From an uncultured Gammaproteobacteria bacterium (GTDB lineage Bacteria; Pseudomonadota; Gammaproteobacteria; GCA-001735895): a DNA stretch of 34,696 nt. The DNA is taken from contig CALJYH010000087.1 in the NCBI GenBank assembly GCA_937984095.1, positions 1-34,696 of the forward strand, in the 5' to 3' direction. Made by a program: the position numbers and the translations under genes. Positions 5,705 to 22,777 of this stretch are shown here, one piece after another (the stretch's first letter is position 1; every line of letters starts with the position of its first letter). Under the pieces are notes generated by a model, which saw only the letters and a program-made list of their open reading frames with translations, was not told the DNA's origin and searched no databases.

Positions 5705-5734
5705 CTGGATGTGCTTTGCAACACATCCAGGTCA
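5701..5734 (-). other. Perfect 13-bp intercistronic stem-loop at the fadN-like stop codon
   Basis: The arms TGACCTGGATGTG (5701-5713) and CACATCCAGGTCA (5722-5734) are exact reverse complements around an 8-nt loop. The stem begins at the TGA stop of the upstream gene on the minus strand. No T-run follows on that strand, so it is not a standard intrinsic terminator. An mRNA-stabilising or processing hairpin that sets different levels for the genes on either side fits better. Confidence 0.6.
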
Positions 5735-8035: not shown

Positions 8036-8044
8036 CAATATCCC

Positions 8045-8842
8045 CTAGGCTGCTTCTTCAAGCGAGCTAATCAATTCACGTAGTTTTTGTAATGTCTGGC
8101 GTGGCGCCTCGATTGGCAGCATGTGACCATAGCGTTCAATGATCGTAACCCTGGCATTGAGTTCTTCGGCAAAGGCCATGCCGGCCTTGACCGGGGTGAG
8201 CCGATCCTTGCGTGCCAGGATCAGCTGCGAAGGCACCTCGATGGATTTGGCAACGACACTGCCTTTTTCATAGTTTGCACAGGCGACCAGGTCTTCGTAT
8301 AGCGGGTTACGCGCCATGATTTGGCGGCCGATCGCAATCGGCTGCATTCCCGGTACCGCGCTGATACCGTATTGCGCATCGGGACCAAAGCCCCACAACA
8401 ACAACATTTCCGCGGCATTCCCGGCACTGTTTTTGGCCGCTTCGATCAACGCCGGGTTGACTGGAATCGCACCCGCAGTACCAATTCCGGTGATTGATTT
8501 CAATAGTTCGGGCGCCTGCCGCGCCAGCTCGAGCACGTCTAGAAAACCCTGCGAATGCCCTACCGCATGTATCCTGGATACGCCCGCAGCACGAATAAAA
8601 TCAGCCAGCCACGCACCCATCTCCTCGATGCTTTCGAGTGGCTCGCCCGCAGAAAGACTATGCCCGGGAAGATCGGGCGCTAGCACCGAGTAGCCGTTGT
8701 AGGCAAACCAGCGGGTTTGCAGGGCCCAGCTACGGTGGTCGAGCCCGCTGCCGTGTACAAACATAACCGTCGGCAGGCTACTGTCGAATTCTTTGCCACC
8801 GGTGGCGGCATAGGTTTTTTGACCGCGTACCTCGATATACAT
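8045..8842 (-). CDS. Alpha/beta hydrolase
   Basis: A 265-residue single-domain alpha/beta hydrolase without a signal peptide. The oxyanion segment is FVHGSG (28-33) and the nucleophile elbow is GHSQG with Ser97. The likely acid is Asp213 in ARKDRLTP and the base His240 in YGHMLP, so the triad is complete. Its start overlaps the metY stop by one base (TGATG), showing translational coupling, and the FadN-like gene starts 9 nt after its stop. The family is too broad to assign a substrate. Acyl-CoA thioesterase or ester hydrolase activity would fit the operon. Confidence 0.85.
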   Translation of the reverse strand: MYIEVRGQKTYAATGGKEFDSSLPTVMFVHGSGLDHRSWALQTRWFAYNGYSVLAPDLPGHSLSAGEPLESIEEMGAWLADFIRAAGVSRIHAVGHSQGFLDVLELARQAPELLKSITGIGTAGAIPVNPALIEAAKNSAGNAAEMLLLWGFGPDAQYGISAVPGMQPIAIGRQIMARNPLYEDLVACANYEKGSVVAKSIEVPSQLILARKDRLTPVKAGMAFAEELNARVTIIERYGHMLPIEAPRQTLQKLRELISSLEEAA

Positions 8843-10149
8843 CAGGATTCTCCCGCGGCGCGCTCTGCTGCCTTGAAACCGCGCGCGAAATCGGCCTTGA
8901 TGTCGCTAATATCTTCGATTCCGACCGAGACCCGGATCATGTCTTCGCTAATTCCCGCGGCTTTCATATCGTCAACGGTGAGACGCGAATGCGTGGTGCT
9001 ACCTGGATGTAACACCAGCGTGCGCGAGTCACCGACATTAGCCAGGTTCGACGCCAGCTGTAACGAGTCGATAAACGCTGCGCCCCCGGCACGGCCACCG
9101 ACAACCCCGAAGCACAGCATCGAGCCGGCACCATCAGGGAACAGGGTTTCAGCCAGCGCATGACTCGGATTCGATTCCATATCAGGGTAGTTGGTCCAGG
9201 TCACTGCTTTCTGCTGCTGTAACCAATCGAGCAGTGCTTTTGCATTGGCAACATGTTGTTTCATACGCAGGCTCAGTGTTTCGATACCCTGCAGGATCAG
9301 GAAAGCATTGTGTGGGCTCATCGCGGCACCAACATCTCGCATCGATTCGGCGCGCATCTTCATCGCCAGCGCCGAGGGTCCGAATTCTTCCCAGAACTTG
9401 ATGCCGTGAAAAGGTGCATAGGGTTCGGTTAATTCCGGAAAACGACCGCTTTGCTCCCAGTCGAAGCGGCCACCGTCGACGATAGCGCCCCCGATGGCGA
9501 CACCATGTCCCCCCATCCACTTGGTGACCGAATGCACGACAACATCGGCGCCGTGGTCTATGGGACGACACAGGCTCGGGGTGGCGAAAGTCGCATCGAC
9601 AACCAGCGGTATACCGGCTTCGTGTGCAATCTCGCTAATACCTGGAATATTGGCAATCTCGAGACCCGGGTTACCGATGGATTCACAGAACACCATCTTG
9701 GTATTCGGCTGGATCGCGTCTCTTAGCGCCTGTTCATCGTTGATCGGGATAAAAGTACATTCGATGCCGAGGCGCTTGATCGTATGCTTGAGCAGGGTTG
9801 CAGTCGAGCCGTAGATCTGGGTCGCCGAAATCATGTGATCGCCGGCCGAGCACAGGGTGATAAAAACCGTGAACAGCGCGCTCATGCCGGACGCGGTGCA
9901 AATCGTGCCGCTGCCGCCTTCAAGAGCGGCGATGCGTTGCTCGAGTACGGCCACCGTGGGGTTGGTAATACGACTATAGATGTGTCCACCCTGTTCGACG
10001 TTGAACAGTGACGAACCATCGCTAACGCTTTCGAACACGTACGAGGTGGTCTGGTACACCGGCACCGCGCGAGAGCCGTGGTCACTTTCAGGCACATAGC
10101 CGCTATGCAGTGCCACGGTGTCCGGTTTGAGGTACGAAGATCGACTCAT
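8842..10149 (-). CDS. metY: O-acetylhomoserine sulfhydrylase (aminocarboxypropyltransferase)
   Basis: A 435-residue Cys/Met-metabolism PLP enzyme. The Schiff-base lysine is K210 in HSVTKWMGGHG. YSRITNPT near 58-65 and TASGMSA near 85-91 are also typical, and the length is that of MetY rather than the shorter MetB/MetC. MetY forms homocysteine from O-acetylhomoserine and sulfide, and some members use methanethiol to make methionine directly. A strong GAGGAG site precedes the ATG, 15 nt after dmdA. Placement after a DMSP demethylase suggests methanethiol capture, which is inference. Confidence 0.9.
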   Translation of the reverse strand: MSRSSYLKPDTVALHSGYVPESDHGSRAVPVYQTTSYVFESVSDGSSLFNVEQGGHIYSRITNPTVAVLEQRIAALEGGSGTICTASGMSALFTVFITLCSAGDHMISATQIYGSTATLLKHTIKRLGIECTFIPINDEQALRDAIQPNTKMVFCESIGNPGLEIANIPGISEIAHEAGIPLVVDATFATPSLCRPIDHGADVVVHSVTKWMGGHGVAIGGAIVDGGRFDWEQSGRFPELTEPYAPFHGIKFWEEFGPSALAMKMRAESMRDVGAAMSPHNAFLILQGIETLSLRMKQHVANAKALLDWLQQQKAVTWTNYPDMESNPSHALAETLFPDGAGSMLCFGVVGGRAGGAAFIDSLQLASNLANVGDSRTLVLHPGSTTHSRLTVDDMKAAGISEDMIRVSVGIEDISDIKADFARGFKAAERAAGES

Positions 10150-10164: not shown

Positions 10165-11265
10165 TTAGTTTATGGCGTCAAAATCAAATGGCAGATCGAC
10201 GACTCGGGCGGTTACACCCTCAACGGTTAATTTATCACGCTCACCCAGGTAATCGCGTTTCATCATCGCCATCGCCAGGTGTTTCCGGTACCGCGGTGAC
10301 CAGACATGCGACCTGATTTCACCGACGATTCGATTATCCACTTCAATTCTGAAATCTTCAAAAACCATGTCCTTACTAAAAACCAGTCCGACCAATTGGT
10401 GCTCATGTTTACCGGCGATTGCGCGCAAGGCAGGCAGGCTGATCGATTCGATATCCGCGTCGATATCCATGTAGGCGTCGAGTCCACATTCGAATGGATT
10501 GTGGGCATCGGTCACGTCGTTACCGTAGGAAAGCAGTCCGCTTTCGACGCGTTCGATCAGGTTCGGTCCCCCGGCCTTTACGTGGAGGTCTTTACCGAGG
10601 CGGAACAATTCATCCCACAACGGTTCGGCCAGGCTGGCATCGTTCAGATAAATTTCGAATCCGCCTTTCTTGCTGTAGCCCGAGCGCGCAACCATCATCT
10701 TCTTGCCCTGAAATTCCAGCATCTTGGATCGGAAGAAGCGAATTCCAGGGACCTCGTCACCAAACAATCGTGTCACCAGTTCTTCGGCCTTGGGCCCCTG
10801 TACCGCGAGTGGCCAGACGTCGGGCTCGCTGACCTGTACATCGAGGCCGAATCCGGTCACTAGCCCCTTGGCCCAGAGTTTGACATCACTATCTGAAATC
10901 GAAATCCACCAGTCACCCGGGGCGAATTTTATGATGATCGGATCATTAATCAGGTTTCCTCTTTCGCCGCAAAGCGGCGCGTACAGACCCTGTCCGATGA
11001 CTGCCTTGCGGATGTCGCGCGGGGTCATCAACTGCATCAGGCGTTCACTGTCGGGACCCTTGATTTCGACCTGCCGCTGACAGGACACATCCCATACCTG
11101 AACATGTTCACATAAGTGCCAGTAGTCTTCTTCAAAGCCGCCGAATGCAGTGGGTAACAACATGTGATTGTAAACGGTATAGGCCGTGACCCCGGCCGCT
11201 TCGACCCTATTGGTGAAAGGCGTAGGGCGGGTACGATGGGAAATGCTCAGATACTTGTTATTCAA
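10165..11265 (-). CDS. dmdA: DMSP demethylase DmdA (GcvT-type aminomethyltransferase family)
   Basis: A 366-residue folate-binding GcvT-fold protein. The segments YNHMLLP (32-38), SISDSD (122-127), QGPK (156-159), RSGYS (194-198), PNLIER (234-239), SYGND (246-250) and NPFECG (256-261) match what I recall of SAR11 DmdA rather than generic GcvT. DmdA moves a methyl group from DMSP to tetrahydrofolate, leaving 3-methylmercaptopropionate. The start is TTG at 11265-11263, with an in-frame TAA two codons upstream and the next Met only at residue 35, so TTG is the only reasonable start. It is the first gene of the long minus-strand operon and has an operator-covered promoter upstream. A related demethylase with another substrate cannot be excluded. 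Confidence 0.83.
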   Translation of the reverse strand: MNNKYLSISHRTRPTPFTNRVEAAGVTAYTVYNHMLLPTAFGGFEEDYWHLCEHVQVWDVSCQRQVEIKGPDSERLMQLMTPRDIRKAVIGQGLYAPLCGERGNLINDPIIIKFAPGDWWISISDSDVKLWAKGLVTGFGLDVQVSEPDVWPLAVQGPKAEELVTRLFGDEVPGIRFFRSKMLEFQGKKMMVARSGYSKKGGFEIYLNDASLAEPLWDELFRLGKDLHVKAGGPNLIERVESGLLSYGNDVTDAHNPFECGLDAYMDIDADIESISLPALRAIAGKHEHQLVGLVFSKDMVFEDFRIEVDNRIVGEIRSHVWSPRYRKHLAMAMMKRDYLGERDKLTVEGVTARVVDLPFDFDAIN

Positions 11266-11328
11266 CCTTTAGTCTCTTTGTTTAGATAAGTGAGAATACG
11301 GCTTGAACCGGTCTATTTACGCGCCGCA

Positions 11329-11357
11329 ATCCTAGTCTTTTTTGATTTGTCTGACAA
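11329..11357 (-). promoter_or_regulatory. Putative sigma70 promoter of the dmdA operon
   Basis: On the minus strand, TTGTCA (11357-11352) is five of six to the -35 consensus. It is followed after exactly 17 nt by TAGGAT (11334-11329), four of six to the -10 consensus. Transcription would start near 11322, leaving a leader of about 57 nt before the TTG start. The -35 lies inside the palindrome at 11345-11359, so a bound protein would be expected to block it. Confidence 0.5.
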
Positions 11358-11359
11358 AT
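11345..11359. promoter_or_regulatory. GntR-type operator upstream of dmdA
   Basis: ATTTGTCTGACAAAT is a perfect inverted repeat, ATTTGT-N3-ACAAAT, of the shape bound by FadR-subfamily GntR regulators (GT-N3-AC core). The site at 21751-21765, between the gntR gene and acuI, differs at one spacer base only. I infer that the GntR protein encoded at 20975-21697 binds both. Confidence 0.7.
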
Positions 11360-11401
11360 AAGAAATTACCTGCTAACTACCTGTTTTTACCAGATCACGA
11401 C

Positions 11402-12238
11402 CTATTCAGGATAAAGCGGGGTGTTGGCTTCGATTTCGGCCACGCGTGGGCCATAGTGCAAAATGCTCGACTCCTTTTTTCCGATTAAACCAGGCCGGGT
11501 GGAATAGCCCAGAATGGCCTGGATTCGCTGCCGGGAACCTTCAACCCCAGTTACCCGGTGCAGTGAATAATGACCGCGAAACAGCGACAACGTGCCTGCC
11601 TTTAAGCGATTCTGACGCACCCGATCACTATTGCCATCCAGAACCGCCTGTACTGCGTCGAAGTTTTCGTCCTCCTCGGAGCGAATCGCCGGGGCATATT
11701 CGAATATCCCTCCGGCTTGGGGCTCCTGTAACAACAATGTAGTCACCATGGTTCCGCTATCAAAATGCCATTGCTGGCAGCCGCCCTGGTTCATGACTGA
11801 AATATTAAGCGACTGGTATGGATCCTGGTTACGATAAACCGGCTTCTCGGTTACAGCGGACAGAAAATCGAGCATTAAATCGCTGCGATAGAGCTGGCTC
11901 AGCAAAAATTCTGGTGGGATCAAATCGGCTGCCACCTGTGCCAGGTTACGTTTGCCTTTATGCCTTAACGGGTGCGTGGCAGGGACATCGTCACCACTAC
12001 CGAGTTGATAATTAAAGAAGTAGGGACTGACCTCGGTCGGGCCGGGATAGGCGAGATGTGCTATAGATAGTGCCTGTTGTACCATCTTGGTGAGTGCTGG
12101 TGCCGTTACGAACTTCGGCAGGATGCATGAACCATCCTGGTCAAGTCTGGCGCGCAGCTGCGCGACCCAGGTCCGTGCATCAGCGGATGACAAGTTATCG
12201 AGCGGGTAAACCGCGGTATTGATAATCTGGGGTGACAT
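11402..12238 (-). CDS. Fe(II)/2-oxoglutarate-dependent dioxygenase-like protein
   Basis: A 278-residue protein carrying the facial triad His158-x-Asp160 (QQWHFDSG) and His227 (YSLHRVTG), plus Arg238 (SRQRI) in the usual 2-oxoglutarate position, on a cupin-like double-stranded beta-helix. Asp is present where 2OG halogenases carry Gly or Ala, so hydroxylation or another oxidation is expected. The substrate is unknown. I recall similar proteins annotated as ArpA-like or HalD-like oxygenases. The gene lies 136 nt upstream of dmdA on the same strand, but the dmdA promoter lies between them. It is divergent from the radical SAM gene at 12324. Confidence 0.75.
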   Translation of the reverse strand: MSPQIINTAVYPLDNLSSADARTWVAQLRARLDQDGSCILPKFVTAPALTKMVQQALSIAHLAYPGPTEVSPYFFNYQLGSGDDVPATHPLRHKGKRNLAQVAADLIPPEFLLSQLYRSDLMLDFLSAVTEKPVYRNQDPYQSLNISVMNQGGCQQWHFDSGTMVTTLLLQEPQAGGIFEYAPAIRSEEDENFDAVQAVLDGNSDRVRQNRLKAGTLSLFRGHYSLHRVTGVEGSRQRIQAILGYSTRPGLIGKKESSILHYGPRVAEIEANTPLYPE

Positions 12239-12323
12239 CGCGTTAAAATTACAGGTTTTTTGTCTCGATGCAAGCGGGTAATACTTGTGTCGGGGTGTAT
12301 GAATAATTTAGGCTTCGGCAACC

Positions 12324-13223
12324 ATGCTTCAACAACTTCCCGTGCAATATATAGAACCGCTATTTCGTCCTCCGAGCGAAGCGCGGTCATTGATTTTCCA
12401 GGTGACTAATGGTTGCAGCTGGAATCGCTGTACCTATTGCGAAATGTACACCGACCCACAGAAAAAGTTCAGACCGCGAGCGGAGGCGGAAGTGCTTGCC
12501 GAAATTCGCGCCTGCGCCGAGCAGGGACTCGAACCACGGCGGATTTTTCTTGCCGATGGCGATGCGCTCGTGTTATCGATGCGTCGACTGCGCATCATTC
12601 TCGGCGAAATCAGGTCTGCGTTACCCTCGGTTAGCCGGGTGTCCTCGTACTGCCTTCCATCCAATCTCAAGCATAAAACCGATGAAGATCTGCAGGAGCT
12701 TGAATCACTGGGATTAAAGATCATATATGTCGGTGCCGAAAGTGGGGATGACGAGGTGTTACGGAATATTGACAAGGGCGAAACCTATGCCTCCACCGCA
12801 GACGCCCTGATCCGCGCCAGTGCCGCTGGCATCAAGACCTCGGTCATGATTTTGAACGGTATTGGCGGCAGGAGCTTCAGTCGTCAGCATGCGCTTGCCT
12901 CGGCCCGACTTGCCAACGACACCCAGCCGGATTACCTGGCGACGCTGGTGCTGACGTTTTACAAGGGGAGCGAGAAGTTTGCCGCTGGTTTTGACAACGG
13001 CTTTGAGGAACTCGGCACGGTCGAGCTGTGTGAAGAAATGAAAACGCTGATTACGGCAACCGAACTGAAAAGTACTATTTTCCGCAGCGACCATGTCTCT
13101 AATCACATGGTGTTGAAAGCTGTGCTGGGTAAGGACAAGCAGCGCCTGTTGAGTCAAATCGACCAATCGATCGCGTACTTTAAGGATCATCCGGAATTTG
13201 AAAATGGCAACTTCGGTTACTGA
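12324..13223 (+). CDS. Radical SAM protein with CX4CX2C cluster motif
   Basis: A 299-residue protein. Cys31, Cys36 and Cys39 in NGCSWNRCTYC form a CX4CX2C motif, one residue longer than the canonical CX3CX2C radical SAM motif. GGRSF and an EVLAEI helix follow, as in related radical SAM proteins. No second cluster or cobalamin domain is visible. The C-terminus overlaps the DUF1289 gene by 20 nt, so the two are co-translated, and the Nudix gene follows. The substrate is unknown. The family is widespread in proteobacteria and uncharacterised as far as I know. Confidence 0.8.
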   Translation: MLQQLPVQYIEPLFRPPSEARSLIFQVTNGCSWNRCTYCEMYTDPQKKFRPRAEAEVLAEIRACAEQGLEPRRIFLADGDALVLSMRRLRIILGEIRSALPSVSRVSSYCLPSNLKHKTDEDLQELESLGLKIIYVGAESGDDEVLRNIDKGETYASTADALIRASAAGIKTSVMILNGIGGRSFSRQHALASARLANDTQPDYLATLVLTFYKGSEKFAAGFDNGFEELGTVELCEEMKTLITATELKSTIFRSDHVSNHMVLKAVLGKDKQRLLSQIDQSIAYFKDHPEFENGNFGY

Positions 13224-13407
13224 TCATTTAGCGCGGGTTGAATCACCCTGCGTGCGCAAGTGCACGCTCGATGACGATGACATCTGTCTCGGCTGTTTCC
13301 GCAGCATTGACGAAATCTGCTCCTGGGGTGGCGCCAGCAATCAAGAGCGTCTGGAATTTCTCGAGTTGGCAGCAGCAAGAAGGAGCAGGAACTCGAAACG
13401 TGCCTGA
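13204..13407 (+). CDS. DUF1289 family small cysteine-rich protein
   Basis: A protein of 67 residues from the ATG at 13204; a TTG at 13198 would add two. Cys16, Cys20, Cys28 and Cys31 in SPCVRKC and ICLGC form a small metal-binding-type knuckle typical of DUF1289 (YdhL-like), followed by the conserved IDEICSW segment. It overlaps the radical SAM stop by 20 nt and the downstream GTG start by 8 nt. The function of the family is not established. Confidence 0.85.
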   Translation: MATSVTDHLARVESPCVRKCTLDDDDICLGCFRSIDEICSWGGASNQERLEFLELAAARRSRNSKRA

Positions 13408-14008
13408 TCTCGACGATCTCAGCGTCGATGAAATTCGTGCGCGCCTGCATGCCCAGCGCGAAACGACTTATGATGTACCCCCGGAAATGTTAAGTGACGC
13501 AGCGCGCGAGGCAGCGGTACTAGTGCCGTTTCTGCGTATCGAGGACGCCTGGCATATTCTCTATATAAGACGTACCAGTTATGAAGGTGACCGCCATAGC
13601 GGACAGGTTGCTTTCGCCGGCGGCAAGCGCGATGACGAAGACGAGTCATTGCTTGCCACTGCACTACGGGAGACCGAGGAAGAGATCGGGATCTCCACTG
13701 GCGATATCGACGTGCTCGGACATATCAACCATCACCATACCATTAGTGAATTCCAGGTGCGGCCTTACGTTGGGGTCATACCCTGGCCGTACCAGTTGAA
13801 ACTCGATGAAATAGAGGTTGCACGCGCATTTACGATGCCATTGAATTGGCTCGCACAAACCACTAATTACCGTACCGAGGAACGTCAGCATCCCGATTCA
13901 CAACGCCCGTGGCCAGTCGTCTACTATGATTTATACGATGGTGAAATGTTGTGGGGCGCGACCGCACGTATGACCCTGTCGCTGATCGAGGTATTAAGCG
14001 GCAAGTGA
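13400..14008 (+). CDS. Nudix hydrolase, CoA pyrophosphatase (NudL-like)
   Basis: A protein of 202 residues from GTG at 13400, chosen because the longer open frame from 13238 runs antiparallel-style through DUF1289 and encodes a low-quality leader. AGGAG at 13381-13385 is 14 nt upstream, rather far. RHSGQVAFAGGK (65-76) and RETEEEIG (90-97) match the CoA-pyrophosphatase (UPF0035) form of the Nudix box, with the GQVAF motif characteristic of NudL. Such enzymes cleave CoA or acyl-CoA to 3',5'-ADP and phosphopantetheine. It ends 1 nt before the convergent fpr gene. Confidence 0.82.
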   Translation: MPDLDDLSVDEIRARLHAQRETTYDVPPEMLSDAAREAAVLVPFLRIEDAWHILYIRRTSYEGDRHSGQVAFAGGKRDDEDESLLATALRETEEEIGISTGDIDVLGHINHHHTISEFQVRPYVGVIPWPYQLKLDEIEVARAFTMPLNWLAQTTNYRTEERQHPDSQRPWPVVYYDLYDGEMLWGATARMTLSLIEVLSGK

Positions 14009-14009
14009 T

Positions 14010-14753
14010 CTAGTGATACTTTTCGGTGGTGAAGTGACCCGGGTCGCGACGGCGGTGTTTTTTCATCTCCCGGGATACCAGCTCAGCGCTGACATCGGTA
14101 ATCATGTCTGAGCTACCGCACATCATGACATGTGAATTCTCGGCGTTAATGATAATGCCTGCCTGCTGCTCGAGACTGCCATCTCGCATCACGGCGGGCA
14201 CCCGTTTTGCAAGGCTCCCATCCAGTTTTTCACGCGTGACTATCGACAGGTAGCAAAATTGTTCACCATGAGTACTCGCGATCTGTTCGATCACGTCCTG
14301 GTAGGCAAGTTCTTCGGCATAACTGACAGAGTAAACCAGAATAATTTTTTCAAATTTCTCCCAGGCTGCCTTGCTTTTGAGGATTGACAGGAATGGGCCG
14401 ATTCCAGTGCCGGTTGCGATCATCCATAGATGCCTGCATTGCGGTATTTCACTGACGGTCAGGAATCCCGATGGATTATCGGAAACCAGCACGTCGTCAC
14501 CCGCCTTGAGGTCGAATAAACGCGGTGATAAAGGACCCTCCTCGACGATGTTGAAATAGACCTCGAGATGGTCTTCCCCAGGGGTATTGACCAACGAGTA
14601 GGGACGTGCCAATACCGTATCGCCATCCGCTAAGCCGATACGGACAAATTGTCCTGCTTCGTATCCACCCAGCTCGACATCGATAATCAACGAAGTCAGG
14701 TATTGATTGAGGCGCCGATTATCGACAACCCTGCCTTCCAGCCAGTTAGCCAT
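14010..14753 (-). CDS. fpr: Ferredoxin/flavodoxin-NADP+ reductase
   Basis: A 247-residue two-domain flavoprotein. The FAD-binding RPYSL motif is at 50-54, the NADP-binding GTGIGP at 115-120, and the C-terminus is GHFTTEKYH, an aromatic-containing tail typical of bacterial plant-type-fold Fpr. It exchanges electrons between NADPH and ferredoxin or flavodoxin in the cytoplasm. It is transcribed alone and converges with the Nudix gene. The REPIN-like repeat lies in its upstream region. Confidence 0.9.
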   Translation of the reverse strand: MANWLEGRVVDNRRLNQYLTSLIIDVELGGYEAGQFVRIGLADGDTVLARPYSLVNTPGEDHLEVYFNIVEEGPLSPRLFDLKAGDDVLVSDNPSGFLTVSEIPQCRHLWMIATGTGIGPFLSILKSKAAWEKFEKIILVYSVSYAEELAYQDVIEQIASTHGEQFCYLSIVTREKLDGSLAKRVPAVMRDGSLEQQAGIIINAENSHVMMCGSSDMITDVSAELVSREMKKHRRRDPGHFTTEKYH

Positions 14754-14827
14754 TGTGGACCCTTGTCATTTGTATAATGCCGACGTCATAAGATTCGAGG
14801 CCTTAAATTCTGAACCGGAACTATACC

Positions 14828-14898
14828 GTCATTCCCGCGTAAGCGGGAATCTTATCATCGCGGTATCGAGCCGAGATCCCCGCTTGCGCGGGGATGAC
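14828..14898. repeat. REPIN-like pair of inverted REP palindromes
   Basis: Two 20-bp hairpins, ATTCCCGCGTAAGCGGGAAT (14831-14850) and ATCCCCGCTTGCGCGGGGAT (14876-14895), are nearly identical when one is reversed. The outer ends are GTC (14828) and GAC (14898), making the whole unit an imperfect palindrome with GTCAT...ATGAC ends. A further fragment, GCGGGGATG, follows at about 14909. This is the layout of a REPIN, a nonautonomous element mobilised by RAYT transposases. No RAYT gene is present here. It fills the 203-nt gap between fpr and the GST gene. Confidence 0.8.
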
Positions 14899-14956
14899 GT
14901 GAAGAATCGCGGGGATGCTATCGGATTTCGCGCAGATTACCGGTCTGGCAATCATG

Positions 14957-15616
14957 TTATGCCGCCAGTCGTTGCAAGCTGTAGGATCCATTCTTTTCCA
15001 TCGCGCTGAGATACAGGTCTTCAAATTCATCGACGACTGAATCGCGGACCTCGGGCAAGGTCAGCAGGCGTTCGGCCCAGGCGACAGTGCGGGGCATGGT
15101 TGCAGGATTAATCACCGAAAGTCTGCCGTTGGCCACAGAGTCTTGCCTGAAAAAAGGAGCGAACGCGGTATCGGCGAGTGAGAATTCTGCGCCGTTGAAC
15201 CAGGGACCGTCGCCGAGGCGTTTCTCCACACGCTCGAGCTGGCTGACCAGTCGTTCCCGATACTTACTATACCTTTCCTCGTCCTTACTCATTTTCATCA
15301 TGTAGAGATTACCTAGCATATTCGACGCAAATTCTATCCAGGCGCGGTTCTTGGCGCGCGCCAGAGGCTCTTTGGGTTGCAGCTCGCCACCCGTAATTTC
15401 GTCGAGGTATTCATTGATGACCGCTGATTCGAACAGGATCTCGTCGTCAACTTTCAACACCGGAACTTTTCCCAGCGGTGAAATTTCAAGGAACCAGCCG
15501 GGTGGGTCGGCGAGGTCGATATAGGTGATATCGAAATCGATATTCTTGTGTTTCAGGGTAATAACCGCACGTTGTACGAACGGGCAGGTCTTAAAGCTGA
15601 TCAGATGTAGCGACAT
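14957..15616 (-). CDS. Glutathione S-transferase family protein
   Basis: A 219-residue protein with an N-terminal thioredoxin-like domain starting CPF (Cys11) and the cis-proline/glutathione segment GKVPVL plus ES-AVI near 49-66. An all-helical C-terminal domain contains SLADTAFAPF. The CPF cysteine places it with Cys-type GSTs (omega/lambda/Lig-like) that perform thiol-disulfide or deglutathionylation chemistry rather than classical conjugation. The substrate is unknown. Confidence 0.85.
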   Translation of the reverse strand: MSLHLISFKTCPFVQRAVITLKHKNIDFDITYIDLADPPGWFLEISPLGKVPVLKVDDEILFESAVINEYLDEITGGELQPKEPLARAKNRAWIEFASNMLGNLYMMKMSKDEERYSKYRERLVSQLERVEKRLGDGPWFNGAEFSLADTAFAPFFRQDSVANGRLSVINPATMPRTVAWAERLLTLPEVRDSVVDEFEDLYLSAMEKNGSYSLQRLAA

Positions 15617-15743
15617 TGTGTTGTTCCCGGGCTTAAGTCAGAATAAAAGTGTCAGATCCACTAGGTATGGGTCATAAAAAACAAACTCAATCCCAAAATA
15701 ATTAAATATTTTGGTGGGCCTGAGTCATTGAGGAGAAATTACT

Positions 15744-16412
15744 ATGTCGACCGCGACACTAGGTCTCGACGAAACCCTGCAAAAATACCTGCTCGAGGTT
15801 TCGTTACATGAACCGGAAGCCTGCCTGCGCTTGCGCCAGCAAACACTGGAACTGCCGGATGCCAATATGATCAGTTCGCCCGAACAGGTGCAATTGTTAA
15901 AGTTGCTGTTCAAAATGCTGGATGCAAGAAATGGCCTCGAAATCGGCACCTTCACCGGTTACACCACTTTGAGATTGACCATGGCGATGCCGAAACTGAA
16001 AATGACCTGCTGTGACGTGAGCGAAGAATTCACCCGTATTGCGCGCGAGCACTGGCAGGCGGCACAGGTTCAGGATCGGATCGATTTACAAATTGCACCG
16101 GCGCAGCAAACCCTGGATGGTCTGATAGACGAAGGATTCGAAGGCGCCTACGATTTTGCTTACATCGACGCGGATAAGAGTGGTTACCGGGGTTACGTCG
16201 AATCCTGCCTGGCGCTGGTTCGCCCTGGTGGCTTGATAACACTCGATAATGTGCTCTGGAGTGGTGCGGTGGCCGATCCGGAAGATACCAGCGAAGATAC
16301 GGTTGCGCTGCGTGAACTCAATCAATGGATCTATGCACAGGCGCCCAGTCGCTATGATATGTCACTGATTCCGATCGGTGACGGCCTGACTCTACTACGC
16401 AAGTATTACTAG
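15744..16412 (+). CDS. SAM-dependent O-methyltransferase (caffeoyl-CoA OMT-like)
   Basis: A 222-residue class I methyltransferase. Motif I is LEIGTFTGY (65-73), the metal/substrate acidic motif is IDADK (141-145, Asp143), and LDNVLWSG (167-174) follows. This is the pattern of the cation-dependent caffeoyl-CoA/catechol OMT family. A good AGGAG site lies 7 nt before the ATG. It is divergent from the GST gene, across a 127-nt AT-rich gap, and convergent with mtnA. The acceptor is unknown. Confidence 0.88.
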   Translation: MSTATLGLDETLQKYLLEVSLHEPEACLRLRQQTLELPDANMISSPEQVQLLKLLFKMLDARNGLEIGTFTGYTTLRLTMAMPKLKMTCCDVSEEFTRIAREHWQAAQVQDRIDLQIAPAQQTLDGLIDEGFEGAYDFAYIDADKSGYRGYVESCLALVRPGGLITLDNVLWSGAVADPEDTSEDTVALRELNQWIYAQAPSRYDMSLIPIGDGLTLLRKYY

Positions 16413-16443
16413 TGAATAAGGCAGGGATAGATTTGCTCGGGCT

Positions 16444-17550
16444 CTATGTTAAATCTAGCGAGTTCTCGCGAAAAGTACTAGCCAGTTTGCTTTCTGTGGC
16501 CTCGATGATTGCTGCTTCGGTGATCAGGCCCGTGATCAGTCTTGCCGGGGTCACATCGAACGCGTAGTTAGTTACCTCTGTGCCTTCCGGGGCGATCGTG
16601 ACATGTCCGATTTCGCCGCTGGGCAGCTTCCCCATTACCTGTGAAACCTCGGTTCCATCACGCTGTTCGATGGGCACTTCCTCCTTTCCGTCGCTGATGG
16701 TCCAGTCGATCGTCGTACTCGGCAGGCAAACGTAAAATGGGACGCCATTGTCTTTTGCTGCCAATGCTTTCAGGTAAGTGCCGACCTTGTTGCAGACATC
16801 GCCGCTGCGGGTGGTTCGATCGCTGCCAACCAGGCACAGGTCAACCATGCCATGTTGCATCAAGTGTCCGCCGAGGTTATCGACGATGAGGCTGTGCGAT
16901 ACATCATGGTGACCCAGTTCCCAGGCGGTCAGGCTAGCCCCCTGGTTGCGAGGACGGGTTTCATCAACCCAGACGTGGATTGGAATACCGGCGTTGTGCG
17001 CCATGTAAATCGGTGCAGTCGCAGTACCCCAGTCGACCGTCGCAAGCCACCCGGCATTGCAGTGAGTCAGGATATTAACGTTTTCGCCGGGTAATTTCCG
17101 GGCGGCTATTTGCTTGATTACTTCTAGGCCATGAATGCCTATGGACTGGTTGGTTTCGACATCCAGTTCGGCGATTCGACCTGCTTCAACGAACGCCCGG
17201 TCAATCCGCTCACCGGGTGCCAACGATTCCAGACAGTCACGAAGGCGATCCAGTGCCCAGCGCAGGTTGACTGCGGTTGGTCGGGTCTGGAATAACCGGG
17301 AGTAGGCATTCTGCATAGCGCTATCGGATGGGTCCTTACGCATCGCCAGATAATATCCGTAGGCTGCGGTTGCACCGATTAAGGGTGCACCGCGCACCAC
17401 CATATCGCGTATCGCAATGCACGCATCCCCCAGGTTTTGCAAGTTCCTGACTTCGAACGCATGTGGCAATCGGGTTTGATCGATGACGTCAATCGACCAG
17501 CCATCGTCATTAATCCAGATGCTGCGGTAGGCAACTCCATCGACATTCAT
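16444..17550 (-). CDS. mtnA: S-methyl-5-thioribose-1-phosphate isomerase
   Basis: A 368-residue protein of usual MtnA length. RGAP is at 53-56, the catalytic Cys164 lies in [15 protein letters not shown] starts near 197, and the catalytic Asp244 lies in [15 protein letters not shown]. It converts methylthioribose-1-phosphate to methylthioribulose-1-phosphate in methylthioadenosine salvage. It starts 3 nt after the aldolase gene's stop, which argues that the aldolase acts on its product. No mtnP, mtnK or mtnB-E gene is in the window. Confidence 0.93.
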
Positions 17551-17553
17551 GAT

Positions 17554-18219
17554 TCAGTTGCCATCAGCAGGTTGCTTGCCGTAGCTTTCAAACCTTTCCA
17601 GTACCTCGGTCATTTGAGCCTGGTCCAGGATAACCGGATCGCCAGCCTGGCGCGCATACCAGTACTGTTTTGCCAGGGTTTCGATCTCGACCCCGAGCCA
17701 AAGTGCCTGGCCCAGGTTATCGTGATAGCAAATCATGCCGTGGGTTCCGAGCAGGCAGGCGCGACGGCCATCGAGTGCAGTCAGCATGTTGTCAGACAGC
17801 TCCTGCGTGCCGAACAGAGCGTAATCAGCGCAGCGAATATCGCTACCACCGGCGACTGCAACCATGTAATGAAACGCGGGGATTTCCAGTCGCAGGCAGG
17901 ATAGTGCCGTCGCGAAGATTGAATGGGCGTGTAATACCGCTCCCGCCTCTGGCCGATTAACGTAGATATCCCGGTGCATGCGCCATTCGCTGGATGGCGT
18001 CAGTGAATCCTCGGAATTACCATCCAGATCAATCAAAACAATATGCCCGGGCTGCAGCTGCTGGTACGGTATGCCCGACGGCGTAATCAGAAACCCATCC
18101 TCGAAACGCACGCTGATATTGCCGGCACTGCCCTGATTAATGCCCTGCGCATTCATCGCCAGGCAACTTTCGATCACGTTGCGCGACAAAGATTTTCGCA
18201 TGCCAGCATTTGAATTCAT
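17554..18219 (-). CDS. Class II aldolase, FucA-like; probable methylthioribulose-1-phosphate aldolase (Ald2)
   Basis: A 221-residue zinc aldolase. Glu78 (SSEWR), His97 and His99 (LHAHS), and His160 (GTHG) line up at a constant +5 offset with FucA Glu73, His92, His94 and His155. NQGSAGN and LITPSGIPY are also FucA-like. MtnB dehydratases belong to the same superfamily, but the FucA resemblance plus coupling to mtnA favours the DHAP-shunt aldolase. That enzyme splits methylthioribulose-1-phosphate into DHAP and 2-methylthioacetaldehyde. L-fuculose-phosphate aldolase is the alternative, but no fucose genes are nearby. Confidence 0.82.
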   Translation of the reverse strand: MNSNAGMRKSLSRNVIESCLAMNAQGINQGSAGNISVRFEDGFLITPSGIPYQQLQPGHIVLIDLDGNSEDSLTPSSEWRMHRDIYVNRPEAGAVLHAHSIFATALSCLRLEIPAFHYMVAVAGGSDIRCADYALFGTQELSDNMLTALDGRRACLLGTHGMICYHDNLGQALWLGVEIETLAKQYWYARQAGDPVILDQAQMTEVLERFESYGKQPADGN

Positions 18220-18230
18220 GGATGGATTTC

Positions 18231-19199
18231 CTACTCGATGGTTTCGCGTTGTTGTAGACGCCAGCCCTGGTAATCGATACCCCTGTCGTAAACTCGTTTG
18301 TTAACGTAATCGAGTGCACCCCAGAGCCGATAAAACTGAACTACAGAATCGATACGCATGATTTCGTGGCCAGCGGGACTGAACAGTATAACGGTCGGAG
18401 TATAAAACAGACCGAGGTCTTTTCCCCATTGAATAGCCGTGGTTTTTATGCCACCCGGAGTGATCACCTCGGTATCTGCAAAAAGATTCAGCTGTACCAC
18501 GTCCATTTTTGCAATTTCCCCGAGAATTTCGTCTTGCATGAGTGGTCCGCTATGGAGCAATTCACAGGCATGACACGAGCCCTGTTCAAATATGACGGCA
18601 AGCGGTTTTTCTGAGGATTGCTTGCTGCGGTCCAGGTAATAAGGCGGCTGCATAAGAAAGTCGCGTTCAATCAAATCACCGGAGGTGAAAAATAATCCGG
18701 GTTCTGCGCGTTCGAGGTAATCGCGAAATTTCTCAACACGGTAAAATCCCTCGGCTACATAATGCAGCGCTGCGCGAAACTGGTACGGTGGATAATAACC
18801 GCGCAGGCGATAAACCGGCTTGCCCTTGCGATCATAGAATACCAGTGACGGTGTGAAGTTAGTGTCGTAGCGCAATGCGAGTTCGCGTTCGGTGTAGGTG
18901 TTGCCATTGGTATCGACAAACTCCTCGATACCCCAGATGTCGACGGGTATCACATCGAAATGCTCACGCAGGTAATGTTCGGTCGTGCTGTCGGAGAGAT
19001 TGATCTCGAAGAATTTTTCGCAGTAGGCACAACGATCCTGTCCGTAGTAAACCGCGATGCCGAATTTTCCCTGTTCTCGTGCTTCGTCGATATCGTCATT
19101 CAGATCGCCGAGGCTGAGCTTGAACCAGTCGGGATAAACCAACTCCTCGTCGAGCAGGGTATCGTCGAATTTGAGTGGATCCTTATCGCTCATAGGCAT
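18231..19199 (-). CDS. Tandem thioredoxin-like domain protein
   Basis: A 322-residue protein with two thioredoxin-fold halves. The first has CAYC (Cys57, Cys60) and a cis-proline segment TPSLVFYD near 116-123. The second has CHAC (Cys209, Cys212) and TPTVILFS further on. No signal peptide or membrane anchor is visible at the N-terminus (MPMSDKDPLKFDD), so it should be cytoplasmic unless the start is wrong. AGGAT precedes the first ATG. It resembles thioredoxin_2/SoxW-type proteins. It lies between manC and the aldolase, 11 nt from the latter. Its partner is unknown. Confidence 0.75.
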   Translation of the reverse strand: MPMSDKDPLKFDDTLLDEELVYPDWFKLSLGDLNDDIDEAREQGKFGIAVYYGQDRCAYCEKFFEINLSDSTTEHYLREHFDVIPVDIWGIEEFVDTNGNTYTERELALRYDTNFTPSLVFYDRKGKPVYRLRGYYPPYQFRAALHYVAEGFYRVEKFRDYLERAEPGLFFTSGDLIERDFLMQPPYYLDRSKQSSEKPLAVIFEQGSCHACELLHSGPLMQDEILGEIAKMDVVQLNLFADTEVITPGGIKTTAIQWGKDLGLFYTPTVILFSPAGHEIMRIDSVVQFYRLWGALDYVNKRVYDRGIDYQGWRLQQRETIE

Positions 19200-19255
19200 T
19201 AAATATCCTACTTCATCGGCAGAGCGGACTGACTCAGGTCAATTATTGATGAAAA

Positions 19256-20662
19256 TTACGGGTCGCTGCGTCCATAAATATCATCGAAACGGACGATGTC
19301 ATCTTCACCAAGATAGGAGCCCGACTGTACTTCGATGATATCGAGCGGGATGTTGCCCGGATTTTCAATGTAGTGGGTGGCCCCGATAGGAATGAATACA
19401 GACTCGTTTTCATGCAGGTCGAAAATCTCGTCGTTGCGAAAAACCCGTGCCGTGCCCTTGACTACAACCCAGTGCTCGGCACGGTGATGGTGCTTTTGCT
19501 TGGATAATCGGGCGCCGGGGCTGACGGTTATTCGTTTGACCTTGTAACGGTCGCCTTCATCTACGGAATCGAAACTACCCCAGGGGCGGTAAACGATGCG
19601 ATGAAAGTTTTCTTCCCCGCGTTGCTCTCCCTTGAGTTGCTCTACAATTTGCTTTACTTCCTGTGCCTGCTCCTTGTCCGCCACCAGCACCGCGTCATGG
19701 GTTTCAACGATAACAAGGTCTTTAACCCCAACCGTGGCGACCAGGCGACTCTCCGCGTGCACAAATGAATTTTCGGTGTTGGTTGTAATTACATCGCCAT
19801 GGACAGTATTTCCGGCCTCATCTTTTTCACCCTGGTCCCATAGTGACGACCAGCTGCCGATATCACTCCAGCCGGCATCCATCGGCACCACGCAGGCCAG
19901 GTCGGTTTTTTCCATTACCGCATAGTCGATAGATTCGGGCTCGCAATTAGCAAACGCATCCGGATCAAGTCGTAAAAATCCGATATCTTCTTGCAGGTTG
20001 GCAATTGCAAGCTGGCAATGCCTGATCATATCCGGTTTAAATTTATCCAGCTCCTGCAGATAGGTTTGTGCCTTGAACATAAACATTCCACTGTTCCAAT
20101 AGTAATCTCCCGTGGTCAGATATTCTTCGGCCGTGTCGCGATCGGGTTTTTCGACGAATTGATCGACGATAAATCCATTACCTTCGGCTTCTCCGCGTTT
20201 AATATAACCGTAACCCGTTGCGGCATTTGTAGGAACGATCCCGAAAGTCACCAGTTTACCCGCCTCGGCCAGTGGCAGGGCTTGTGTTACCGCGTCGCGA
20301 AACGCCTTCTCGTCAGCTATTTCGTGGTCTGCCGAAAGCACCAGCAGGACCGGATCTTGCGCGAGCCCGGTGGCGTGAATCGCCGCAACCGCAATGGCTG
20401 GTGCCGTATTCTTGCCAAAGGGTTCGAGAATGATCGATAAATCTTCAATGCCGATCTGGCGTGCCTGTTCGGCAACGATGAAGCGGTGTTCATTGTTGCA
20501 TACCACGGTAGGGGCGGTATGTTCCAGCCCGTCGAGGCGCGACAATGTCATTTGCAGCATAGTCTGGTCATGCAGCAGACTTAGAAACTGCTTGGGATAC
20601 ATTTTGCGCGACAATGGCCATAGCCTGGTGCCAGAACCGCCGGAGAGAATAATGGGAATCAA
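19256..20662 (-). CDS. manC: Mannose-1-phosphate guanylyltransferase / mannose-6-phosphate isomerase
   Basis: A 468-residue bifunctional type II enzyme. The N-terminal nucleotidyltransferase has [10 protein letters not shown] and the KMYPKQF lysine region (7-26), then FVEKPDR. The C-terminal cupin isomerase domain, from about 350, has [19 protein letters not shown] and a downstream ENESVFIP segment. It makes GDP-mannose for surface polysaccharide. No other polysaccharide gene is nearby. AlgA, XanB and CpsB are equivalent names. Confidence 0.93.
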
Positions 20663-20756
20663 TTTATGTTCTCGCTCTTAAAGTGAATCTTTTACAGTTG
20701 AAATAGCCCAGTCCGTCAACCATTATAGGTTGATATGTAAGGTAAAAACAGGCGCT

Positions 20757-20978
20757 ATGTCACAGCAAACGTCGAGATCAGTTCAGGTCATTGAGGTCTA
20801 TAAAAAACACAAGCTCGCAGCCAATGCACTGTCCCACATTCATGAGTTAATTCAAAGCTTCGAACGGGATCGCGTTGCGGACCGGCGTTTGGCGGTAATC
20901 GGGTTACTGAGTATTCTGGTGCTGATCGGAATCTCGTCTTACTTTTTGCTAAACAGTGACAGTCTCATATTACCCTAA
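20757..20978 (+). CDS. Small single-pass membrane protein, unknown
   Basis: A protein of 73 residues from the ATG at 20757. The frame is also open from an upstream start at 20730, but that would add a nine-residue leader without support. An amphipathic, charged N-terminal region (VYKKHKLAANALSHIHEL) precedes a hydrophobic segment at about 45-65, and the C-terminus is short. It is divergent from manC, and its TAA overlaps the convergent gntR stop by 3 nt. I do not recognise a family. Confidence 0.55.
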   Translation: MSQQTSRSVQVIEVYKKHKLAANALSHIHELIQSFERDRVADRRLAVIGLLSILVLIGISSYFLLNSDSLILP

Positions 20979-21697
20979 GCTCTACAGGCACTCGCCTGTT
21001 CAAACTTTTGCAACAGGTAATCCAGTAATTCATCCATACGTTCCTTGAGCGCATTGGTGTCACCCTGTTTGAGATGCTCGAGCATTTGCTGATGCAGCGA
21101 GATAATATCGCTGCGCTCACGCACCACTGTTACCACCATGTTGGTAACCGGAATCAGCGCCTCGATTACGGTATACATGACGAAACGCAACATGCCATTG
21201 TCGGTGGCATCGACCAGGGCCCGGTGAAAGGCGACATCGGCCTGGCAAAATGCTTCATCGCTGATCCCGGGGTCTTGTTGGCGCTTTAAGGCGGTTTCGA
21301 TATTCTGGATATGGGTTTCGCCCGCATTGGTCATGGCGAGATCGATGCAACTGCCTTGCAACGCCCGCCGCGCCTCGATAATTTCTTCAATACCGAGAGC
21401 CCCCATGCCAACCAGCAGGGTCGCCGCACCGCTCAGGGACTCGGCCAGTTCAGCGTAACTCGGCTGGACCACGAAATTCCCACCCGTCGGGCCACGTTTT
21501 GCGCGAACCAGGTTCTGTGCGGCGAGTCGCTTCAGGGCTTCACGTACGCTTGGGCGCGAGACGCCGTAGCGCTGTGCGAGTTCATCCTCGGTGGGCAAAC
21601 GTTGTCCGATTTTGAATTGTCCTGCAACGATAGCGGCGCGCAGTTGTTCGGCAATTTGTTTCGAGATACTTGCCTTTACGATTGTGTTTTCCTGCAC
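20975..21697 (-). CDS. GntR family regulator, FadR/FCD subfamily
   Basis: A protein of 240 residues from a GTG start at 21697, with AGGGA upstream. The N-terminal winged helix-turn-helix spans about 10-77 and includes LPTEDELAQRYGVSRPSV. The remainder is an all-helical FCD ligand domain with DVAFHRAL and a later SLHQQMLEHL histidine, as in metal-assisted acid-binding members. It is divergent from acuI with a perfect palindrome between them, and a nearly identical palindrome covers the dmdA promoter. I infer a repressor responding to a DMSP-derived acid or CoA ester such as acrylate, 3-hydroxypropionate or methylmercaptopropionate. The ligand is not readable from sequence. Confidence 0.9.
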   Translation of the reverse strand: MQENTIVKASISKQIAEQLRAAIVAGQFKIGQRLPTEDELAQRYGVSRPSVREALKRLAAQNLVRAKRGPTGGNFVVQPSYAELAESLSGAATLLVGMGALGIEEIIEARRALQGSCIDLAMTNAGETHIQNIETALKRQQDPGISDEAFCQADVAFHRALVDATDNGMLRFVMYTVIEALIPVTNMVVTVVRERSDIISLHQQMLEHLKQGDTNALKERMDELLDYLLQKFEQASACRA

Positions 21698-21750
21698 TGT
21701 GATGTCCCTAAGTATTGGTGATGCATTTGCTGAAAAATTACTTTAACATG

Positions 21751-21765
21751 ATTTGTCTTACAAAT
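21751..21765. promoter_or_regulatory. GntR-type operator between gntR and acuI
   Basis: ATTTGTCTTACAAAT is a perfect ATTTGT-N3-ACAAAT inverted repeat. It is identical to the dmdA site at 11345-11359 except for one spacer base. On the gntR side, TTGTAA within it could be a -35, with TAATTT (21740-21735) 17 nt on as a weak -10, the same geometry as at dmdA. This suggests autoregulation. The acuI promoter is not resolved. Confidence 0.72.
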
Positions 21766-21787
21766 AGAAATTCTATGGGGTCGAAGC

Positions 21788-22777
21788 ATGTCAGGACAAT
21801 TTCAGGCTTACCAAATTGGCAAAAGTGATGAGGGCCAACGTTGCGTGCTGACGCAGCTAAGCGACAATGATTTGATGGAAGGCGACGTCACGGTCGACGT
21901 CGAATATACCACCCTAAATTACAAGGATGGCCTGGCGCTAACCGGCAGGTCACCGATTATTCGTAAGTTTCCGCTCACGCCCGGTATTGATTTCAGCGGC
22001 ACGGTTTCAGAATCCAGCCATTCCGGTTTCAGTGCCGGTGATCGTGTGATTCTGAATGGATTTGGTGTTGGCGAAGGGCACTCGGGTGGCTACGCGCAAA
22101 AAGCGCGTGTTAGTGGCGACTGGCTGGTCGCGCTACCGGAAGGCCTGGATACACGCCACGCGATGGCGATTGGGACCGCGGGATATACCGCGATGTTGAG
22201 CATCATGGCGCTGGAAGACCATGGTATCAATCCCGGTGATGGCGACATCCTGGTCACTGGTGCATCAGGCGGGGTTGGTAGTGTTGCCGTCGCGATTTTG
22301 AATCGGCTTGGACATCGTGTGGTGGCAACTACCGGACGCATGAATGAAAAAGAATTTTTGATAGATCTGGGCGCCGCGGACGTACTGGATCGAGCGGATT
22401 TTTCGGAAAAGGCGCGTCCGCTTGGCAAGGAACTGTGGAGTGGGGCGATCGACGTCGCGGGTGGCAATACACTTGCCAACGTCCTCAGTCAGCTCAAGTA
22501 TGGTGGTGCGGCAGCCATATGTGGTTTGGCCGAGTCGATGAACCTGCCGACTACGGTGGCGCCGTTTATACTTCGTGGCATTTCAATGTATGGTATCGAT
22601 TCGGTAAATGCACCAATCTCAAAGCGCAAAATCGCCTGGCAGCGGCTGGCTTCTGACCTTGACCTTGATCTGCTAGATAGCCTGTCTTTCGATCTGGATT
22701 TTGCAGATTTACCGCAGGCGGCGGAAGATATTCTGGCCGGCAAAATCAGGGGCAGGGCGGTCGTCAAGGTTCCCTAG
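21788..22777 (+). CDS. acuI: Acrylyl-CoA reductase AcuI / YhdH-type quinone oxidoreductase
   Basis: A 329-residue MDR-superfamily NADPH-dependent reductase. LNYKDGLALTG (43-53, with the family Tyr45) and GIDFSGTV (66-73) are characteristic of YhdH/AcuI. The Rossmann motif is TGASGGVGSVAV (157-168). No zinc-ligand pattern is seen. AcuI reduces toxic acryloyl-CoA from DMSP cleavage or 3-hydroxypropionate to propionyl-CoA. A divergent GntR gene and a shared operator with dmdA support a DMSP role. Without them YhdH would be an equally good name. Confidence 0.88.
   Translation: MSGQFQAYQIGKSDEGQRCVLTQLSDNDLMEGDVTVDVEYTTLNYKDGLALTGRSPIIRKFPLTPGIDFSGTVSESSHSGFSAGDRVILNGFGVGEGHSGGYAQKARVSGDWLVALPEGLDTRHAMAIGTAGYTAMLSIMALEDHGINPGDGDILVTGASGGVGSVAVAILNRLGHRVVATTGRMNEKEFLIDLGAADVLDRADFSEKARPLGKELWSGAIDVAGGNTLANVLSQLKYGGAAAICGLAESMNLPTTVAPFILRGISMYGIDSVNAPISKRKIAWQRLASDLDLDLLDSLSFDLDFADLPQAAEDILAGKIRGRAVVKVP

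Follow-up and report, generated by a model that had tools for sequence, protein, structure and literature searches.

Whether marine bacteria demethylate or cleave dimethylsulfoniopropionate (DMSP) decides how much sulfur can leave as dimethyl sulfide (DMS). In Ruegeria pomeroyi, dmdA and acuI form one operon that DMSP and acrylate induce and methylmercaptopropionate (MMPA) does not; the demethylase gene there responds to acrylate made by the competing branch, and the accessible part of the report names no regulator (PMC3338564). In Rhodobacter sphaeroides, the acrylate-responsive repressor of acuI, AcuR, is encoded beside its target in acuR-acuI-dddL, an operon that holds a lyase gene and not dmdA (accessible part of PMC3017554); AcuR belongs to the TetR family (accessible part of PMC3338564). 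Here we analyse a stretch of 34,696 nucleotides from an uncultured gammaproteobacterium (contig CALJYH010000087.1 of assembly GCA_937984095.1; hereafter the window), in which two near-identical 15-bp palindromes, operators 1 and 2, lie upstream of a dmdA operon and between acuI and a regulator gene, gntR (Table 1). As in R. pomeroyi, dmdA and acuI would stand under one control, and as with AcuR the regulator is local. Where R. pomeroyi has a single operon, the window has two units separated by 10 kb, with an operator at each, and gntR is divergent from acuI; unlike AcuR, the regulator is of the GntR/FCD kind.

We infer, with a probability of roughly 0.87, that the gntR product is a FadR-type repressor of the dmdA operon, of acuI, whose product removes toxic acryloyl-CoA, and of a cysteine desulfurase gene at another genomic location; it would bind the shared operator, control its own gene and respond to an inducer. 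A local FadR-type repressor is of an ordinary kind. No GntR-type regulator of dmdA was found in the accessible parts of the open-licence literature searched (including PMC4334477, PMC3338564, PMC9769926, PMC10746254, PMC3017554 and PMC5395565), nor was a regulon combining demethylation, acrylate disposal and probably sulfur transfer, with a reach over two classes. A candidate protein, a likely binding site and three putative targets are now offered for the regulator question posed by R. pomeroyi.

Both 15-mers lie where the original prediction had placed them, and its description of them as perfect 6-3-6 inverted repeats holds for operator 2 (ATTTGTCTTACAAAT); operator 1, which reads ATTTGTCTGACAAAT, is better described as 7-1-7. 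The prediction had found no third copy by eye, and a scan of the window allowing up to three mismatches finds none either: its 4 strand-matches all fall at the two operators, at a setting loose enough for a shuffle mean of 1.88 and for at least 4 matches in 16 of 100 shuffles. Exact ATTTGTCTKACAAAT occurs only at the two operators, within the window and within the source genome alike (G000; 1,965,043 bases in 148 contigs, 62.7% complete), with 0 matches for the reversed-pattern control. The genome-wide search that had been suggested as a check likewise gave few exact copies: TTTGTMNKACAAA is present at 3 places, the third of which, on contig C121, is a conserved further target. With up to one mismatch, TTTGTMNKACAAA is found at 10 places against 24 for its reversed control, and one-mismatch places are therefore no evidence of further targets. 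The window contains 8 perfect 6-3-6 repeats where first-order Markov copies average 9.5; on that count the two operators could be one frequent palindrome repeated by chance, and we dropped the notion that palindromy is unusual in itself. However, the same arm is used twice in 1% of 200 such copies, and conservation of the site extends through the genus and across the class boundary, which leaves chance barely credible. Since palindromy alone is ordinary, it is by conservation across genomes that we judge the pair to be real.

We searched 41 genomes of the family, 31 of them from the window's genus. A gntR gene is present in 19 of the 41, all within the genus, and a site with at most three mismatches lies 51-67 bp ahead of every one of these gntR matches. 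Homologues of dmdA are present in 30 of the 41; taking one upstream region per genome (n=30), 23 carry a site with at most three mismatches and 21 with at most one. The seven regions lacking it belong to close homologues in four genomes without gntR (G006, G008, G010 and G015) and to divergent homologues in G007, G014 and G027. A second dmdA copy in G028 also has the site (G028:C64:57-71). Wherever gntR-bearing genomes could be scanned, the palindrome is thus kept at the orthologous loci, in 19/19 at gntR-acuI and in 18/18 at dmdA. In an operator-anchored alignment of 20 genomes, mean column identity is 97% inside operator 1 and ~63% on either side, a contrast that is in part selection, the rows having been picked for a site with at most two mismatches.

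Genomes without gntR provide a natural experiment. Among genomes with a close dmdA, the dmdA site has at most one mismatch in all 18 that bear gntR and in 3/9 that do not (Fisher p 0.0003, uncorrected for kinship); in the remaining 6/9 the palindrome is decayed or absent. The three that keep it are G021, G025 and G023. In the first two, no match to the acuI N-terminus was obtained either, and gntR may for that reason be simply unassembled there. A tree of 30 AcuI proteins requires 6 gains or losses of gntR, at least 3 of them dictated by branches with good support. In the sister pair G017/G027, G027 has no gntR and its acuI operator is decayed, with the bases just before the operator intact. 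Where acuI palindromes vary in genomes without gntR (G006, G007 and G010), we provisionally take the variants as decay and not as a switch of specificity. In G010 (L116, 6345-6359) a different perfect palindrome, ATTTGCCATGCAAAT, occupies the same acuI promoter position; it may reflect either decay or another regulator.

Beyond the genus, too, the operator accompanies the regulator. The best 80 of 498 relatives comprise 16 genus members at 75-96% identity (L123-L135, L140-L142), three Thiodiazotropha sequences at 62-63% (L136-L138), one from Motiliproteus at 52% (L139) and 60 at 40-47% (L143-L202), the last nearly all Rhodobacterales or Alphaproteobacteria by name. At the 64 non-genus loci, the best match to TTGTCNGACAA near the gntR start is exact in 13 cases, has one mismatch in 38 and two in 13 (shuffle expectation 0.02, 0.54 and 5.8), which makes 51/64 with at most one mismatch against 0.56 expected. 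When Thiodiazotropha and Motiliproteus are set aside, the exact core TGTCNGACA lies within 200 bp of gntR in 51/60 loci, and its density is 70 in 12.6 kb near gntR versus 10 in 1,049 kb elsewhere. Called by homology without family cut-offs, acuI is present in 54/60 and dmdA in 34/60 of these loci, some of which are cut by contig ends. In L133, a locus from within the genus, GTCNGAC is no more frequent than chance; both operators there have the ATTTGTAAGACAAAT form, which GTCNGAC does not match. In Ruegeria denitrificans (L198, 7887-9917), PpoB2-family and DinB-family genes lie between the operator and dmdA. An orthologue occurs in 3 of 369 sampled Gammaproteobacteria genomes, two of the three being from the window's genus, and a putative transfer of gntR between the two classes is likely.

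The original prediction had attributed the demethylation and acrylate-handling arms to one FadR-type regulator, and the conserved sites, their decay where gntR is missing and the core beside orthologues all support this. A third target, out of sight of the original prediction because it is not in the window, is on C121, where the operator precedes a gene for a SufS-like cysteine desulfurase. A site with at most three mismatches stands before this gene in 13/15 gntR-bearing genomes and 1/10 gntR-less ones. In the G017 orthologue, 93% identical to the protein of the source genome, the GHK lysine and a cysteine that aligns with SufS are both retained.

The positions of the three sites bear on the direction of control. 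Operator 1 had been predicted to cover the -35 of the dmdA operon; TTGTCA-17-TAGGAT is the sole promoter-like match in 11200-11500 (1 found, shuffle mean 0.3), and it is conserved in relatives, where the -10 mostly reads TAGSAT. A consensus promoter scan at acuI did not find the promoter and returned one minus-strand match only, so that we rely there on conservation: the -10 is TAGAAT in sisters, and G009 and G023 have TTGACA-17-TATCAT. Operator 2 fills the spacer between the two acuI elements. The third site follows promoter-like TTGCCA...GACAAT and ends 7 bases ahead of the start codon in the source genome. Sites over a -35, within a spacer or just past a -10 are repressor positions, from which the promoter is blocked. 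All three sites are so placed, the acuI spacer measuring 16-17 bp, and we read the regulator as a repressor. Alternatively, the same protein might bind both sites as an activator on which dmdA and acuI expression depends. GntR-type proteins can activate: GntR1/2 of Corynebacterium glutamicum is given this function at ptsG, where its site is centred at -60 (accessible part of PMC2230225); but none of the three sites lies upstream of a -35, and acuI is kept in 8 scanned genomes without gntR, which is easier under a repressor. We consider activation unlikely.

As a FadR-subfamily repressor, the gntR product would bind ATTTGTCNKACAAAT-like sites. Once bound, it would cover the -35 of the dmdA-metY-hydrolase-fadB-acs operon, fill the acuI spacer, a place that is also upstream of its own gene, and cover the likely transcription start of the desulfurase gene. 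Accumulation of a DMSP cleavage product, most likely acrylate or acryloyl-coenzyme A (acryloyl-CoA), would release the protein, and the demethylase, the acryloyl-CoA reductase and the sulfur-handling enzyme would then be made together. Release by acrylate or acryloyl-CoA is the simplest picture given the induction pattern of R. pomeroyi and the presence here of a DMSP_lyase-family gene. On a wider scale, we lean slightly towards the view that one GntR repressor sensing acrylate or acryloyl-CoA, shared by Rhodobacterales and a few Gammaproteobacteria lineages, is the missing regulator that links demethylation to the cleavage product, and that in the window's genus dispersed targets (the dmdA operon, acuI and the cysteine desulfurase gene) have been brought into a single regulon by placing the same operator at each promoter.

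The DMSP_lyase-family gene (PF16867, 85 bits against a cut-off of 27) lies at G000:C83:24145-24570. With it in the genome, acrylate may arise inside the cell and both DMSP branches may be present. None of the places in the source genome that match TTTGTMNKACAAA with at most one mismatch is on its contig.

A number of observations weigh against the repressor proposal. Binding and regulation of the targets by GntR are predicted from sequence, the inducer is borrowed from R. pomeroyi, whose own regulator is left unnamed in the accessible text (PMC3338564), and the winged-helix part of the predicted protein model has low confidence. The 13-mer TTTGTCNGACAAA gives 26 forward matches across the 41 genomes versus 39 for the reversed control; raw counts of it show no excess, and the case therefore rests on where the sites are located. 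A longer pattern gives 86 strand matches versus 24 in its control. Isolated places also occur in G032 and G038, which belong to another genus and have no gntR. Decay is weaker at acuI, where a site with at most three mismatches is found in 19/19 gntR-bearing genomes and still in 5/8 gntR-less ones. At the desulfurase gene, G027 has no gntR and a site with only 2 mismatches, and G022 and G009 have gntR and no site. Outside the genus, dmdA has its own operator (at most one mismatch within 250 bp) in only 3/35 cases, all three within 221 bp of gntR; the other dmdA genes lie 0.8-2.2 kb away, and their control would need a long shared transcript.

Genome G023 is a further point of this kind: no gntR was found in its 92%-complete assembly or beside acuI, and its sites have 0 (dmdA) and 1 (acuI) mismatch. 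Such near-perfect sites would be accounted for if some other factor, a GntR paralogue or a global regulator, bound both operators and the nearby gntR were incidental, although at this level of completeness the gene could be unassembled. The site upstream of 19/19 genus gntR genes, the core beside the orthologue in 51/60 non-genus loci and the poorer sites of gntR-less genomes speak against another factor, which we hold to be unlikely, slightly more so than activation.

The protein itself has the architecture expected of a FadR-type repressor. It scores 74.9 bits against the GntR winged helix PF00392 (cut-off 27, residues 12-69) and 71.2 bits against the FCD domain PF07729 (cut-off 24.3, residues 105-226). 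The FCD part of the predicted model is all-helical, with a predicted local distance difference test score (pLDDT) of 81-97 over the block of residues 101-240. A fold search matched NanR, CGL2915 and FadR at a template modelling (TM) score of ~0.5, NanR first, and among solved structures NanR (6on4) also comes closest in sequence (E 1.5e-20). With NanR, LldR, PdhR and FadR the protein has in common a winged helix and an FCD domain, but it scores far below each family cut-off: 120.5 bits vs 260 for NanR (NF003011), 88 vs 311 for LldR, 82.6 vs 330 for PdhR and 43 vs 249 for FadR. In the DNA-reading helix region, VSR and REALKRLAAQ are invariant in 30/30 aligned orthologues; G005, which is outside these 30, differs there by one residue. 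Metal-binding FCD regulators use an Asp and three His as ligands. Asp154, His158 and His202 are invariant in the same 30, and where the aligned NanR stretch has its final His there is a nearly invariant Leu224, which puts a full metal site in doubt. A CoA thioester is a possible ligand. Members of the FadR subfamily bind their operators as dimers. The operator consensus of the subfamily is TNGTNNNACNA (accessible part of PMC2230225); TTGTCTGACAA and TTGTCTTACAA both fit this form, in keeping with the predicted likeness of the core to known GntR sites.

Table 1. Positions of genes, promoters and operators. Coordinates are those of the window unless a contig is named.
Feature	Position	Strand	Details
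Acyl-CoA synthetase (acs), PRK08162 subfamily	3951..5582	minus	NF006020, 817 bits vs cut-off 677
FadB-like 3-hydroxyacyl-CoA dehydrogenase / enoyl-CoA hydratase	5732..8038	minus	PF02737, PF00725, PF00378
Alpha/beta hydrolase of dmdA operon	8045..8842	minus	PF00561/PF12697; adjoins metY and dmdA in relatives
metY-like O-acetylhomoserine sulfhydrylase	8842..10149	minus	TIGR01326, 580 bits vs cut-off 495
dmdA, DMSP demethylase	10165..11265	minus	TTG start; NCBIfam NF009133, 466 bits vs cut-off 410
dmdA operon promoter	11329..11357	minus	-35 TTGTCA inside operator 1, 17-bp spacer, -10 TAGGAT
Operator 1	11345..11359	minus	ATTTGTCAGACAAAT on minus strand, 7-1-7 (ATTTGTC-T-GACAAAT); over -35 of dmdA operon
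gntR, FadR/FCD-type regulator	20975..21697	minus	GTG start; PF00392 + PF07729
acuI promoter	21743..21770	plus	TTAACA, 16 bp, TAGAAA; read from alignment
Operator 2	21751..21765	plus	ATTTGTCTTACAAAT, 6-3-6; within acuI promoter spacer, 53 bp upstream of gntR
acuI, acrylyl-CoA reductase (NADPH)	21788..22777	plus	NF051456, 474 bits vs cut-off 440
Third operator	G000:C121:48806-48820 (in L227)		7 bases before SufS-like cysteine desulfurase gene, start 48828

Downstream of dmdA, on the same strand, follow genes for the MetY-like sulfhydrylase, the alpha/beta hydrolase, the FadB-like enzyme and the acyl-CoA synthetase. The first two of these also follow dmdA in the relatives examined (G010, G013, G021, G023 and G025), and in L133 fadB and acs do so as well. 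The whole looks like one operon for the use of DMSP after demethylation, in which the MetY-like enzyme probably serves methanethiol capture. The acyl-CoA synthetase is a candidate for the MMPA-CoA ligase step; against the MMPA-CoA ligase equivalog NF005426 it scores 324 bits, the cut-off being 822. Upstream of operator 1 on the minus strand (11360-11398) a CWGGTA-like motif occurs three times in direct orientation with ~11-bp spacing; it is partly kept in closer relatives, is not evident in distant ones and may be an activator site at dmdA. Between the two operators (16444-19199) lie mtnA, a gene for an L-fuculose-phosphate-type aldolase and an unassigned gene of 322 residues, a cluster which we take to be a likely methylthioadenosine salvage route resembling the dihydroxyacetone phosphate (DHAP) shunt.

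Other sites were seen in individual relatives. A perfect operator in G011:C1 (L109, ~4090) lies at the start of a gene pair encoding a crotonase (enoyl-CoA hydratase) and a nucleoside diphosphate (NDP)-forming CoA ligase. The best NCBIfam match of this ligase is 3-hydroxypropionate-CoA ligase, at 294 bits against a cut-off of 1300, and the pair is perhaps an acrylate or 3-hydroxypropionate route of G011. The sites in L111 and L112 were not counted as targets, being inside coding frames. In L113 (G009:C511, ~3752), TTTGTCGGACAAA is intergenic, between two minus-strand genes.

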